Origin: Verrucomicrobiales bacterium
Lineage (GTDB): Bacteria > Verrucomicrobiota > Verrucomicrobiia > Limisphaerales > UBA9464
DNA length: 64,000 bases
Direction of reading: 5' to 3'
Assembly (NCBI GenBank): GCA_027488845.1
Contig: JAIYBC010000057.1
Coordinates: 1 to 64,000 of the forward strand
Shown piece by piece: positions 15,460-41,637 of the stretch. Every line of letters starts with the position of its first letter. The stretch's first letter is position 1. The notes beneath the pieces are model-generated. The model did no database searches. It had not been told where the DNA came from and saw nothing but the letters and a program-made list of their open reading frames with translations. The position numbers and the translations under genes were made by a program.

Positions 15460-16491
15460 GTGCCGCCGTTTTCCGCCCCGCTTCGCAATGCCGACTGGAT
15501 CCTCGACCTCGATGAACCGGTGTCGGCCGTCTCCGTTGCACCCGACGGTTCCCGCGCCGCCGCGCTGACCATCGAGGGTCACGTCGTCGTGGTGGAGCTG
15601 GCCACCGGACGCCGACTCCACTCGGTCCGTGCCCACGAGGGCGGCGGGTTCCGCCTTGCGTGGCATCCCCGCGAAGACCGCTTCGCGACCTCGGGACAGG
15701 ATGGCCTTGTCCGGATCTGGGATGGGGTCGAGGTCCGCGAGACCGAACGTTTCCAGGCCGGGGCCGCGTGGGTCGAGCAGTTGGCCTGGTCGCCGGATGG
15801 CTCCGTGTTGGCCGCGGGCGCCGGCAAAGGTGTCGTCCTCTGGCGGCCCCAAGGCGGAATTTTCCACAAGTTCCTGGAACACCGCAGCACCGTCGCGGCC
15901 TTGGCGTGGTGGCGTGATGGCCGCCGCCTCGCCGCCGCCTGCTACGGGGGGGTCTCGGTCTACGATCCCGTCGCAGGCGACCTGCTCGAGGTCCTTCCCT
16001 GGAAGACCAGCCTCCTGTCCTTGGCGGTCTCGCCGGATCACCGGTGGGTGGTGGCGGGCACGCAGGAGATGAGTGTGCAGATCTGGCCGTTGCCGTTCGT
16101 GGAGGGCGAGGAGTTGGCCATGTCTGGATACGCGGCGAAGGTCCGAGACCTCTCCTGGCACCATTCCGGACGCTACCTCGCCACCGGAGGCGGCGAGGAG
16201 ATCATGGTCTGGGACTGCGGCGGACGTGGGCCCGCGGGAAGCACGCCCCGGATCCTCGAAGGCCACCTCGGACGAGTCTCCGCGTTGGCCTACCAAAGCC
16301 GTGGGCACGTCTTGGCGAGCGGCGGGCAGGACGGACTGATCTTCTTCTGGAACGCCGGGAAGAGTTCGCAGGCCTTGCGTCAGATCCGCCTGACCGGGGC
16401 GGTCACCGCGCTGGCGTGGACGCCGGACGACCTCAAGGTGCTGGCCGGAACCCAGGACGGCCGTCTCGCCCTGGCCTCGACGCCGGTTTGA
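15460..16491 (+). CDS. WD40-repeat beta-propeller protein
   Basis: The 343-residue protein consists almost entirely of WD40 blades. Recognisable repeats include FRLAWHPREDRFATSGQDGLVRIWD, VEQLAWSPDGSVLAAGAGKGVVLWR, SLAVSPDHRWVVAGTQEMSVQIW, VRDLSWHHSGRYLATGGGEEIMVWD and VSALAYQSRGHVLASGGQDG (each quoted only in part of its blade), giving about seven blades and one closed propeller. There is no signal peptide and no enzymatic domain, so it is likely a cytoplasmic scaffold whose partner is unknown. The start is GTG 15460; no ATG precedes the first blade in frame. It ends 24 nt before an octanucleotide tandem array in the ppc upstream region. Confidence 0.85.
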   Translation: MPPFSAPLRNADWILDLDEPVSAVSVAPDGSRAAALTIEGHVVVVELATGRRLHSVRAHEGGGFRLAWHPREDRFATSGQDGLVRIWDGVEVRETERFQAGAAWVEQLAWSPDGSVLAAGAGKGVVLWRPQGGIFHKFLEHRSTVAALAWWRDGRRLAAACYGGVSVYDPVAGDLLEVLPWKTSLLSLAVSPDHRWVVAGTQEMSVQIWPLPFVEGEELAMSGYAAKVRDLSWHHSGRYLATGGGEEIMVWDCGGRGPAGSTPRILEGHLGRVSALAYQSRGHVLASGGQDGLIFFWNAGKSSQALRQIRLTGAVTALAWTPDDLKVLAGTQDGRLALASTPV

Positions 16492-16515
16492 GGGGTGGGT
16501 GGCTGGGGGGAAGGG

Positions 16516-16595
16516 TTGAAAGGTTGAAAGGTTGAAAGGTTGAAAGGTTGAAAGGTTGAAAGGTTGAAAGGTTGAAAGGTTGAAAGGTTGAAAGG
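16516..16595. repeat. Octanucleotide tandem array, ten perfect copies of TTGAAAGG
   Basis: Ten uninterrupted copies of the 8-bp unit TTGAAAGG were counted directly, beginning 25 nt after the WD40 stop codon and about 130 nt before ppc. The unit is too short, and spacers are absent, so it is not CRISPR. A related array in opposite orientation follows at 16613-16668. Perfect copies suggest recent slippage. Confidence 0.97.
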
Positions 16596-16612
16596 GATGC
16601 CATCTCCGCCCC

Positions 16613-16668
16613 CTTCAGCCCTTCAGCCCTTCAACGCTTCAACGCTTCAACGCTTCAACGCTTCAACC
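16613..16668. repeat. Second octanucleotide array, CTTCAACG type, inverted relative to the first
   Basis: Seven 8-bp units in tandem: two CTTCAGCC, four CTTCAACG and one CTTCAACC. Read on the opposite strand the unit is CGTTGAAG, six of eight positions the same as GGTTGAAA of the neighbouring array. The two arrays therefore form an imperfect inverted pair, 17 nt apart, able to fold into a long hairpin. The array ends 58 nt before the ppc start codon. Confidence 0.95.
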
Positions 16669-16726
16669 TCCCCCCAAGAGTTGAGCTTTTCCCGGAAGGC
16701 TTCACCGTTCCGGCGGGCCTAGGCCC

Positions 16727-19522
16727 ATGGACATGACCCCTCCAGCCATCGACACCCCTTCCATGCCCGCTCCCGACTACGTTGATCTTGGATTCCGCCG
16801 CATCGAGCGGGACATCCGGGAGTTGTCCTGCTGCCTGGCGACCGTCCTCGGCGAGTTGGGCGAGGAAGGGCTCGCGGAATGGCTTCCATGGCGGGGTGGA
16901 GCAGGAACCCTCCCGACGGGGCCGTTGCCGCGTCGTCTTGGGTTGGCGTACTCGGTGGCCTTCCAGCTGTTGAACATGGTCGAGGAATCGGTCGCGGCGG
17001 AGATGCGGATCCTCCGGGAACGGTCGGAGGGACCCGCTGCCGAGCGTGGGCTCTGGGCGGCTCAGCTCTCCGAGATCCGGGAAGGCGGGCAGACGGCCTC
17101 CTCCGTCGCCGCGGCCCTGCGGCGTGTGGAAGTCGAGCCGGTGCTCACCGCCCATCCCACCGAGGCGAAGCGGCTGTCCGTGCTCGAACAGCATCGGGCG
17201 ATGACCGGCCTGGTGGAACGGTTGTCCTCGGACCAATCGCCGGCCCGGCGCGCCGAGCTGCTCTCCGAGATCCGTGCGGCGCTGGAGCGTCTCTGGCGCA
17301 CCGGGGAGATCCTGCTCCAGAAGCCCACGGTCACGGACGAACGCCGCAACGTGCTCCACTACCTGCGGGATGTGTTCCCGGTGGTGCTGTCCGGTCTCGA
17401 CGCGCGGCTGCGGTCGGCCTGGGAGTCCGCGGGCTTCGACCCCTCGTTCCTCCGGGATCCGCAGGCGTTGCCGCGGCTCCGCTTCGGCACCTGGGTCGGC
17501 GGCGACCGCGACGGACATCCGGGCGTCACGGCCGAGGTGACCGCGGAGACGTTGGAACGTCTCCGGGCCAATGCGCTGGAGGTGATGCACCGGCGGCTCA
17601 CGGAACTGGCGGAGCGCCTTCCGTTGTCCGAATGGATCCAACCCGCGCCCCGGTCGCTCTCGGAGCTGCGGGAACGCTGTGTCGCGGCGCTGGGCACCGA
17701 GGCGGCCGCGGTGCTGGAGCTGCATCCGGGCGAACCGTGGCGCCAGTGCGTGGAGCTGATGCTGGCCCGGCTTCCCGTCGAGGTTTCCCCGGGGCAGTTG
17801 GCCCGCATCCACGAAGGTTCCGGACGCTACTCCGAGGCGAGGGAACTGGCGGCCGACCTCGGCTCGCTCCATGCGTCCCTCGTGGAGGCCGGCGCCGCAC
17901 GCCTGGCCGACCACGACGTCGGCCCGGTGCGCCGGACGCTGGACGTCTTCGGCTTCCACCTCGCAAGGCTCGATGTCCGGCAGAACTCCGCCTTCCATGT
18001 CCGCGCGTTGTCGCAGCTGATGTCGGCCGCGGGCATCGACGGTTCCCAATGGGAGGACTGGTCCGAGCCCGAGCGGCTCCGTTTCCTCGAGCGCGAGCTG
18101 CGGTCGCCGCGGCCGTTCCTGCATCCGAGCGCCTCCGCCGGTCCCGAGGCGGACGCGGTCCTCCAGAGCCACCGGGTGCTGGCCCAGCACATCGGACGCC
18201 ATGGGGCGGACGGGGTCGGCGCACTGATCGTGAGCATGACGCGGCGGGTGTCGGACCTGCTGGTGGTGTACGTGCTGGCGAGGGAGGCGGGACTCCTCCG
18301 CATGTATCCGGAGGGCATGGTCTGCCTTCTGCCGGTGGTGCCGCTGTTCGAGACCGCGGACGACCTGGAGCGCGGGCCCGACATCCTGCGCACGTTCCTC
18401 GAGTTCCCGGTCACGCGGCAGAGCCTGGCCTTCCACGCGAGGCGCGACGGCCGGCCGGGCGACCTGGTCCAGCAGGTGATGGTCGGCTACTCCGACTCCA
18501 ACAAGGATGCGGGCATCCTCGCGAGCCAATGGGCGTTGCAGAAGGCCCAGGTGCGGCTCTCGCGGACCGGCACCGAGTCCGGGGTGCGGATCCAGTTCTT
18601 CCACGGACGCGGCGGCACGGTGAGCCGTGGAGCGGGACCGACGCACCGGTTCCTCGAGGCGTTGCCCCACGGCTCGTTGACCGGGGCGATCCGGCTGACC
18701 GAACAGGGCGAGACCATCGCCCAGAAGTACGGCAACCCGGAGACCGCCGCCTACAACCTGGAACTGCTCCTCGCCGGGGTGGCGACGGCGACCCTGCACT
18801 CGCCGGACGCCGACGGGGCACCGCATCCGCTCGCGCCTCTGGTGGAAAGGATGGCCGGCGTCTCGATGCAGGCCTACCGGCGCCTGCTGGAAGCGGACGG
18901 CTTCCTCCAGTTCCACCGCCAGGCGACGCCGATGGATGCGCTCGAGAGCGCCCGGATCGGCTCACGGCCGTCGCGTCGTACCGGGGCCGCGACGCTGGCG
19001 GATCTCCGGGCGATCCCCTGGGTGTTCTCGTGGACCCAGGCGCGGTTCTACCTCACGGGCTGGTACGGCGTCGGCTCGGCGTTGGAGTCGCTCGGCGCCG
19101 GCGAGTTCGACGCCTTGGCCTCGCACCTCCGTCGCTGGCCGTTCCTCCACTACGTCGTGACCAACGTCGAGACCTCGCTCGCCAGCTCGGACCCGATGCT
19201 CATGCGGGAGTACGCGGCGCTCGTCGAGGACGTGGCGGTGCGGGAGAGGATCTTCGGGATGATCGAGGCGGAATGGCTTCGGACCCGCATGGCGCTCGAC
19301 CGTCTGCGGGGCGCGGCGATGACGGAGCGGCGTCCCCGCTTCGCCCGGACGTTGGGCCTCCGCACCGAGGCGCTCCGGGTGCTGCACCGGCAGCAGATCG
19401 CACTGCTGTCGGAGTGGCGTGGGCTGTCCGCGCGGGGTGAAGCCGCCGGGGCGGACGCGATGCTTCCGGACGTGCTGCTGTCGATCAACGCCATCGCCAG
19501 CGGCCTGCGCACGACCGGCTGA
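16727..19522 (+). CDS. ppc: Phosphoenolpyruvate carboxylase
   Basis: The 931-residue enzyme adds bicarbonate to phosphoenolpyruvate to make oxaloacetate, an anaplerotic step. Diagnostic blocks are VEPVLTAHPTEAKR with the catalytic histidine, GGDRDGHPGVT, MVGYSDSNKDAGILAS, FFHGRGGTVSRGAGPTH with the loop arginine, and GSRPSRRTG followed by LRAIPWVFSWTQARF near the C-terminus. Length agrees with bacterial PEPC (about 880-960). ATG 16727 is the first start, and a second ATG (MTPP) lies two codons downstream. No neighbouring gene belongs to the same pathway. Its upstream region is unusual in holding two octamer arrays, which could affect transcription. The C-terminal GLRTTG departs from the common '...MRNTG' end but keeps the last two residues. 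Confidence 0.97.
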   Translation: MDMTPPAIDTPSMPAPDYVDLGFRRIERDIRELSCCLATVLGELGEEGLAEWLPWRGGAGTLPTGPLPRRLGLAYSVAFQLLNMVEESVAAEMRILRERSEGPAAERGLWAAQLSEIREGGQTASSVAAALRRVEVEPVLTAHPTEAKRLSVLEQHRAMTGLVERLSSDQSPARRAELLSEIRAALERLWRTGEILLQKPTVTDERRNVLHYLRDVFPVVLSGLDARLRSAWESAGFDPSFLRDPQALPRLRFGTWVGGDRDGHPGVTAEVTAETLERLRANALEVMHRRLTELAERLPLSEWIQPAPRSLSELRERCVAALGTEAAAVLELHPGEPWRQCVELMLARLPVEVSPGQLARIHEGSGRYSEARELAADLGSLHASLVEAGAARLADHDVGPVRRTLDVFGFHLARLDVRQNSAFHVRALSQLMSAAGIDGSQWEDWSEPERLRFLERELRSPRPFLHPSASAGPEADAVLQSHRVLAQHIGRHGADGVGALIVSMTRRVSDLLVVYVLAREAGLLRMYPEGMVCLLPVVPLFETADDLERGPDILRTFLEFPVTRQSLAFHARRDGRPGDLVQQVMVGYSDSNKDAGILASQWALQKAQVRLSRTGTESGVRIQFFHGRGGTVSRGAGPTHRFLEALPHGSLTGAIRLTEQGETIAQKYGNPETAAYNLELLLAGVATATLHSPDADGAPHPLAPLVERMAGVSMQAYRRLLEADGFLQFHRQATPMDALESARIGSRPSRRTGAATLADLRAIPWVFSWTQARFYLTGWYGVGSALESLGAGEFDALASHLRRWPFLHYVVTNVETSLASSDPMLMREYAALVEDVAVRERIFGMIEAEWLRTRMALDRLRGAAMTERRPRFARTLGLRTEALRVLHRQQIALLSEWRGLSARGEAAGADAMLPDVLLSINAIASGLRTTG

Positions 19523-41494: not shown

Positions 41495-41578
41495 GACGCC
41501 AGACGCCTGACGCCTGACGCCAGACGCCTGACGCCAGACGCCTGACGCCTGACGCCCGTTGTCCGTTGTCCGTTGTCC
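41495..41578. repeat. Heptanucleotide tandem arrays (GACGCCW x9, then GTTGTCC x3)
   Basis: Nine consecutive 7-bp units GACGCCA/GACGCCT (last GACGCCC) occupy 41495-41557. Three perfect GTTGTCC units follow at 41558-41578. The preceding ~40 nt (GATTCGC, GATTCGT, GATTTCC, GAATCCG) show the same 7-bp periodicity in weaker form. The array lies between the FkbM remnant and the helicase gene. Confidence 0.95.
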
Positions 41579-41637
41579 GCGGCGGCCTTCCGAGCTCTCC
41601 GCTCACCACTCCCTGCTCCCGGCTCAACCGCCTGAAC

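Follow-up and report, generated by a model that had tools for sequence, protein, structure and literature searches.

Facing octamer arrays upstream of ppc as one copy of a variable, intergenic repeat family in a Verrucomicrobiales bacterium

Paired arrays between a WD40 gene and ppc

The window, that is, the whole stretch of 64,000 nucleotides that was analysed, carries two short tandem arrays of 8-nt units, lying in opposite orientation between a gene for a WD40-repeat protein and ppc, the gene for phosphoenolpyruvate carboxylase. Gene calls came from a script based on codon usage, for which the window served as training sequence, and the start of ppc was set by hand, moving it from 16943 to 16727. 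The features of the locus are as follows.

15460-16491, plus strand: gene for a WD40-repeat protein (PF00400), the upstream neighbour
16505-16510, plus strand: G run outside the left arm, which lengthens the predicted hairpin
16516-16595, plus strand: left arm, ten perfect TTGAAAGG units (direct reading and Tandem Repeats Finder)
16596-16610, no strand: core GATGCCATCTCCGCC, 15 nt
16611-16666, minus strand: right arm, seven units, namely CCCTTCAG twice, CCCTTCAA once and CGCTTCAA four times (direct reading and Tandem Repeats Finder)
16670-16675, plus strand: C run outside the right arm, which pairs with the G run in the predicted hairpin
16676-16726, plus strand: ppc-proximal leader, with at most 3 of 51 positions changed in three other species
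16727-19522, plus strand: ppc, phosphoenolpyruvate carboxylase (PF00311, E = 3.2e-217; a second model matches below cut-off)

The left arm starts 24 nt downstream of the WD40 stop codon. Its ten perfect TTGAAAGG units, followed by a facing array, were confirmed both by direct reading and by Tandem Repeats Finder, which reported 16510-16595 on the left (period 8, 10.8 copies, 98% matches) and 16613-16667 on the right (period 8, 6.9 copies, 95% matches). On the minus strand, the right arm reads as four TTGAAGCG units, one TTGAAGGG unit and two CTGAAGGG units. The original prediction had described all seven right units by one named sequence with two mismatches; this holds for the four CGCTTCAA units, but not for CCCTTCAA (one mismatch) or for the two CCCTTCAG units (two mismatches). 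The arms are not perfect complements, because TTGAAAGG and CGCTTCAA agree at only 6 of 8 positions. The long imperfect hairpin that had been proposed for the pair is possible: the predicted fold of the arrays has an energy of -110.7 kcal/mol (z = -4.73), and none of 200 shuffled sequences was equally stable. The arrays do lie upstream of the ppc start codon, as had been stated; the distance from the last full unit to the ATG (16727) is 60 nt instead of the claimed 58 nt.

We compared the locus in this genome (G000) with those of three other species of the genus, G012, G005 and G013. The left arm has 10 units in G000, 4 in G012, 3 in G005 and 2 in G013, while the right arm has 7, 2, 3 and 7 units, respectively. 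Two of the four left units of G012 are TCGAAAGG, and the two-unit left arm of G013 is interrupted by other sequence and not merely shorter. For 14 further members of the genus with the WD40 gene, the alignment stops before ppc, and no array was seen in the stretch behind the gene. In a distant relative (L009), TTGAAAC/TTGAATC heptamers are found about 300 nt before ppc, preceded by a TTCAA stretch, which by eye makes the pair divergent. Several of the metagenome-assembled genome records among the ppc relatives are titled Akkermansia muciniphila despite widely differing ppc genes, which looks like a mislabel.

The leader from AAGAGTTGAGC (16676) to the ppc start is identical to that of the window in G013, and G012 and G005 each differ from it at 3 of 51 positions; the sequence neighbouring the leader in G005 is about 84% identical. 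The leader is nearly constant in four species whose arrays differ, which places the arrays on the upstream side of the conserved sequence, and array copy number leaves the spacing to the ppc start unchanged. This bears on the proposal that changes in copy number alter promoter spacing or the expression of ppc. A variable-number switch tuning ppc would account for arrays that stand between the WD40 gene and ppc and vary in length between species, but we regard it as highly improbable given the constant spacing, the presence of similar arrays at at least 47 other clusters in the genome, and the lack of promoter-like sites in 16300-16900 in a scan for the sigma-70 type only. The proposed effect on ppc is unsupported, and nothing here points to the arrays acting as a ppc switch.

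A repeat family across the genome

The pattern (TTGAAAGG)3 has 65 matches in the whole genome, and the same pattern written backwards has none, which excludes a chance origin; thus other TTGAAAGG arrays, for which a search had been suggested, are present genome-wide. The more general pattern (TTGAANNG)3 has 246 matches, and its backwards control has none. In 37 fetched stretches of this genome (271 kb) together with the window, we counted at least 57 runs with a minimum of three units, grouped in at least 48 clusters, a count of clusters that was completed for three unit types and that leaves some mixed arrays outside it. None of 57 runs among the matches listed lies inside a called gene, and the few that overlap a gene end do so by 20 nt or less. 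Pure TTGAAGCG runs terminate at least 11 of the 138 contig ends, so arrays longer than those seen in the assembly probably exist. The ppc copy is an ordinary member of a real, variable repeat family.

Arrays of other short units were also observed. At C36:215575, C36:220370 and C37:37500 (stretches L106 and L107), TTGAAAGG arrays lead into a core of a third kind and CGGACAA-type heptamers, and the arrays of L106 and L107 are mosaics of several short-repeat families. Within the window, heptamer arrays of nine GACGCC(T/A) and three CCGTTGT units occupy 41495-41579, between convergent genes, with far fewer units in the G012 orthologue and none seen in G005.

The layout of the octamer arrays is highly regular. 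In stretches from four genomes, arm pairs that are at most 120 nt apart and have at least two units in each arm comprise 25 convergent and no divergent pairs; when arms of one or more units are included, there are 36 convergent and 2 divergent pairs, and one of these two overlaps an insertion sequence (IS) end. The arrays of the at least 48 clusters lie beside genes of either orientation and at either gene end. Among the 33 runs with both neighbours called, the nearer gene is the outer one, from which the TTGAA strand reads away, for 28 (p = 6.6e-5), while the other five break this rule. The median distance of a run is 9 nt to an outer stop codon (n = 28) and 73 nt to an outer start codon (n = 21).

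Closeness to stop codons would also be explained by a function at the 3' end, and neutrality is not implied by it. The arrays might be transcribed as a hairpin that ends or protects the upstream mRNA, either as a REP/BIME-like stabiliser or as a terminator. We consider this unlikely, even though the median of 9 nt and the strong predicted hairpin agree with it, because a start codon faces the array in 21 of 49 outer genes, the arms are complementary only in part, and no intrinsic terminator (a hairpin, then a T run) was found in 16300-16900. Where the genes on both sides of an array-bearing intergenic region were called, they are convergent in 11 of 30 cases, compared with 8 of 46 intergenic regions in the window, but this excess, from a hand count, is not significant (Fisher p = 0.10). 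In the alignment of the core that recurs between the arms, none of 27 predicted pairs has changed on both sides, which leaves a selected RNA fold unsupported.

Changes in arms, cores and inserted elements

Among 58 other genomes searched, (TTGAANNG)3 is present in seven; within the genus, it is present in 3 of 18 members, namely G005, G012 and G013. The genome G059 (that of stretch L010) was counted as G012, with which it shares identical contig numbers and matches. For 17 of the at least 48 clusters, both flanks were found in the fetched sister stretches, and the longest run was unequal in 15 of the 18 two-sided comparisons with G013 and G059; the flanks were 82-99% identical, and at least 94% identical in 25 of 36. 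For example, the longest run has 12 versus 3 units at C36:64479, 7 versus 11 units at C65:89063, and 5 versus 8 units at C44:12717, while it is equal between species at C38:8325, C57:131619 and C57:150319. The absence of arrays is under-counted here because the loci were picked for holding arrays. The compared genomes stand for species, and the copy-number variation that had been expected of the arrays is thus borne out as variation between species, including the left arm at ppc (10/4/3/2). Units are uniform within an arm and different between arms and between species, which argues that the arms may grow and shrink by slipped-strand mispairing, each arm independently of the other. Speaking against simple slippage at ppc are the interruption of the G013 left arm by other sequence and the agreement of the G013 right arm with that of G000.

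The sequences enclosed by the arms vary as well. At five loci of G000, the arms enclose copies of one core of about 55 nt, relatives of which are found in G012 and G013. The G000 copies are 79-95% identical among themselves, a range that is overlapped by the 64-88% identity of five orthologous core pairs. The C60/C3 locus of G000 has a core that is 84-93% identical to its paralogues and 64% identical to its G013 orthologue, with flanks that are about 96% identical. Several unlike core types occur between similar arms. Judged by eye, the 15-nt ppc core GATGCCATCTCCGCC appears to be what is left of one end of the 'type 1' core (about 55 nt) in reverse orientation, and its counterpart at other loci, also recognised by eye, is GCGGAGATGGC, read the opposite way round.

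Some cores are reversed between species. At ppc, the core of G000 and G013 differs in kind from that of G012 and G005. The cores of G012 and G005 are reverse complements of each other at 30 of 32 positions (score 54 when reversed and 19 forward; the best of 2000 shuffles reached 22). At the C20-end locus, the G013 core is reversed with respect to the G000 core (score 29 versus 15; the best of 2000 shuffles reached 21). A reversed core was thus observed at 2 of 8 loci compared and was absent at 6 of 8, mostly as judged by eye. A flip of the core through the inverted arms, or template switching, would be the simplest account of these reversals, the alternative being re-insertion of the core in the opposite orientation.

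Another reading is a small non-autonomous mobile element (MITE-like) with octamers at its ends. Such an element could explain why copies of the core of about 55 nt are enclosed by arms at five G000 loci as well as in G012 and G013, and why the core type at ppc differs between sister species. It is, in our view, rather improbable: fixed inverted ends, a target duplication and a matching transposase were not seen in the loci read, where arm variation obscures the ends, and similar arms enclose several unlike core types. Moreover, the ends of the IS found in the arrays are different, and the lone match to a Y1 transposase has no adjoining array run. A Y1/RAYT transposase was rejected as a mobiliser of the arrays, with only a single Y1_Tnp match in the genome (C12) and no array run alongside it; the 3.3 kb around this match contain single TTGAANNG units only.

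An IS4-like element has ends that lie in such arrays; its junctions and complete copy are as follows.

Contig ends C5, C7, C19, C30, C32, C38 and C56 of G000: junctions of the IS4-like element
L223:823-2283 (contig C785 of G005): complete copy of the element, with a 415-aa DDE transposase

The ends of the element are CATCGGTGTCC(C/T)GG, an exact pattern that gives the seven junctions in G000, of which six (all except C32) lie within TTGAANNG arrays with at least two units. One G005 contig contains the complete copy and one further end, and all three junctions there are beside arrays. Altogether, nine of the ten junctions read in the two genomes fall in TTGAANNG arrays, where junctions belonging to one insertion are not independent. 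The transposase matches DDE_Tnp_1 (PF01609, E = 5.5e-12), and the IS4 models match below cut-off. At one site, G013 is without the element, and its contig joins the sequences of the C30 end and the C7 start of G000. The flanks of the element at these two ends have GGTTGAAGG on both sides, a duplication of 9 bp or of 1 bp, which is ambiguous because the period of the array is 8. On the two sides of the complete G005 copy, the repeats are inverse and not direct, so this copy lacks a simple duplication.

A second repeated sequence (around CAAGTGACAGGGAGAGTTGGTCACTCAGGTGACAGGGGGAGTAGGTCA) ends in or against octamer arrays in G013, at the ppc and C20-start loci (ends of L158 and L153), and remnants that resemble it by eye are found beside arrays at C57:131657 and C36:209927 in G000.

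Interpretation and comparison with known repeats

The ppc feature belongs to a non-coding, intergenic family of facing TTGAANNG arrays that is spread over the genome. We think it probable that this family is slippage-grown, recombining and REP-like, and we propose no specific role for it in the control of ppc. Besides slippage within the arms, recombination or template switching between inverted arms may swap or invert the cores. The elements could persist since the ends of intergenic regions tolerate them, and any effect that they have on the structure of DNA or mRNA ends would presumably be mild at most. Octamer arrays break assemblies, vary in length between close species and serve as landing sites for an IS.

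Outside the genus, TTGAANNG octamer arrays occur in G023, G029, G040 and G042, and 4 of the 11 outside-genus loci read (L207, L209, L210 and L211) have the look of convergent pairs by eye. Heptamer TTGAANN arrays are present in 11 of the 58 other genomes, ten of which come from other families of the order, and several of the genomes with these arrays also match the backwards control; in G000, no TTGAANN heptamer arrays of four units were found. A wider reading, which we offer tentatively and would not yet favour, is that the arms are recombination substrates, that cores flip and swap between loci such that each genome tends to its own core set, and that the TTGAA arrays of 7- and 8-nt units in several families of the order are the counterpart of the GGGAATC pairs of Xanthomonas and Nostoc. 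If this were true, it would suggest that one general process gives rise to convergent pairs of short repeats near gene ends even in bacteria that are unrelated.

Cyanobacterial short tandemly repeated repetitive (STRR) heptamers are 7-nt tandem units, which are like the octamers in their tandem repetition and differ from them in unit length and sequence. REP elements are single short palindromes and are linked to the Y1 (RAYT) transposase, whereas the octamers form arrays with several core types, and no array lies beside the Y1_Tnp match. According to Tobes and Pareja (2006, PMC1525189), REP elements are intergenic, palindromic, repeated and targeted by particular IS elements; the octamer arrays are likewise intergenic, palindromic, repeated and IS-targeted (9 of 10 junctions of the IS4-like element). 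Marine Beggiatoaceae have many intergenic tandem arrays of the heptamer TAACTGA (MacGregor 2015, PMC4679880), and in this abundance of intergenic short arrays of one unit they resemble the octamers. However, the TAACTGA units are direct repeats according to that paper, mostly a few nt upstream of start codons, with a single indirect repeat in the main genome studied. The literature searched yielded no account of such paired octamer arrays from Verrucomicrobiota, and the available text of one survey (PMC4060949) does not describe such arrays.

The closest known system is that of the convergent GGGNATC-type (GGGAATC) heptamer pairs that Rehm et al. (2015, PMC4692102) described for Xanthomonas and Nostoc, in a paper which also mentions Calothrix heptamers. 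Those arrays consist of GGGAATC and GGGGA(C/T)T units, the criterion being a GGGNATC unit capable of forming a G-quadruplex. They are genome-wide short tandem units over-represented in non-coding DNA, with 70 close convergent pairs (one site per strand) in Xcc and 75 in Xac; they are closer to the 5' neighbour gene regardless of its direction, their length varies between related species, and the authors identified no role for them in gene regulation (PMC4692102). The octamers agree with this description in being intergenic (0 of 57 listed runs inside called genes), in the convergence of their pairs (25 versus 0 for two or more units per arm), in lying closer to the 5' neighbour, in whichever direction that gene runs (28 of 33 runs), and in the variation of array length between related species. 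In contrast, the unit here, TTGAANNG, is 8 nt long, and a GGG tract is lacking from two of the three forms in which it commonly occurs, such tracts being present in TTGAAGGG runs. The octamer arrays are IS targets, while an association with IS elements was generally not found in PMC4692102; their cores change and reverse, while conserved neighbourhoods are reported there; and their host belongs to a different phylum. The octamer family is thus laid out like the Xanthomonas and Nostoc repeats and targeted like REP elements, and by its unit it is a member of neither. That the same layout rule holds with a different unit and a different unit length suggests that the layout, and not the G-quadruplex, is what needs explaining.
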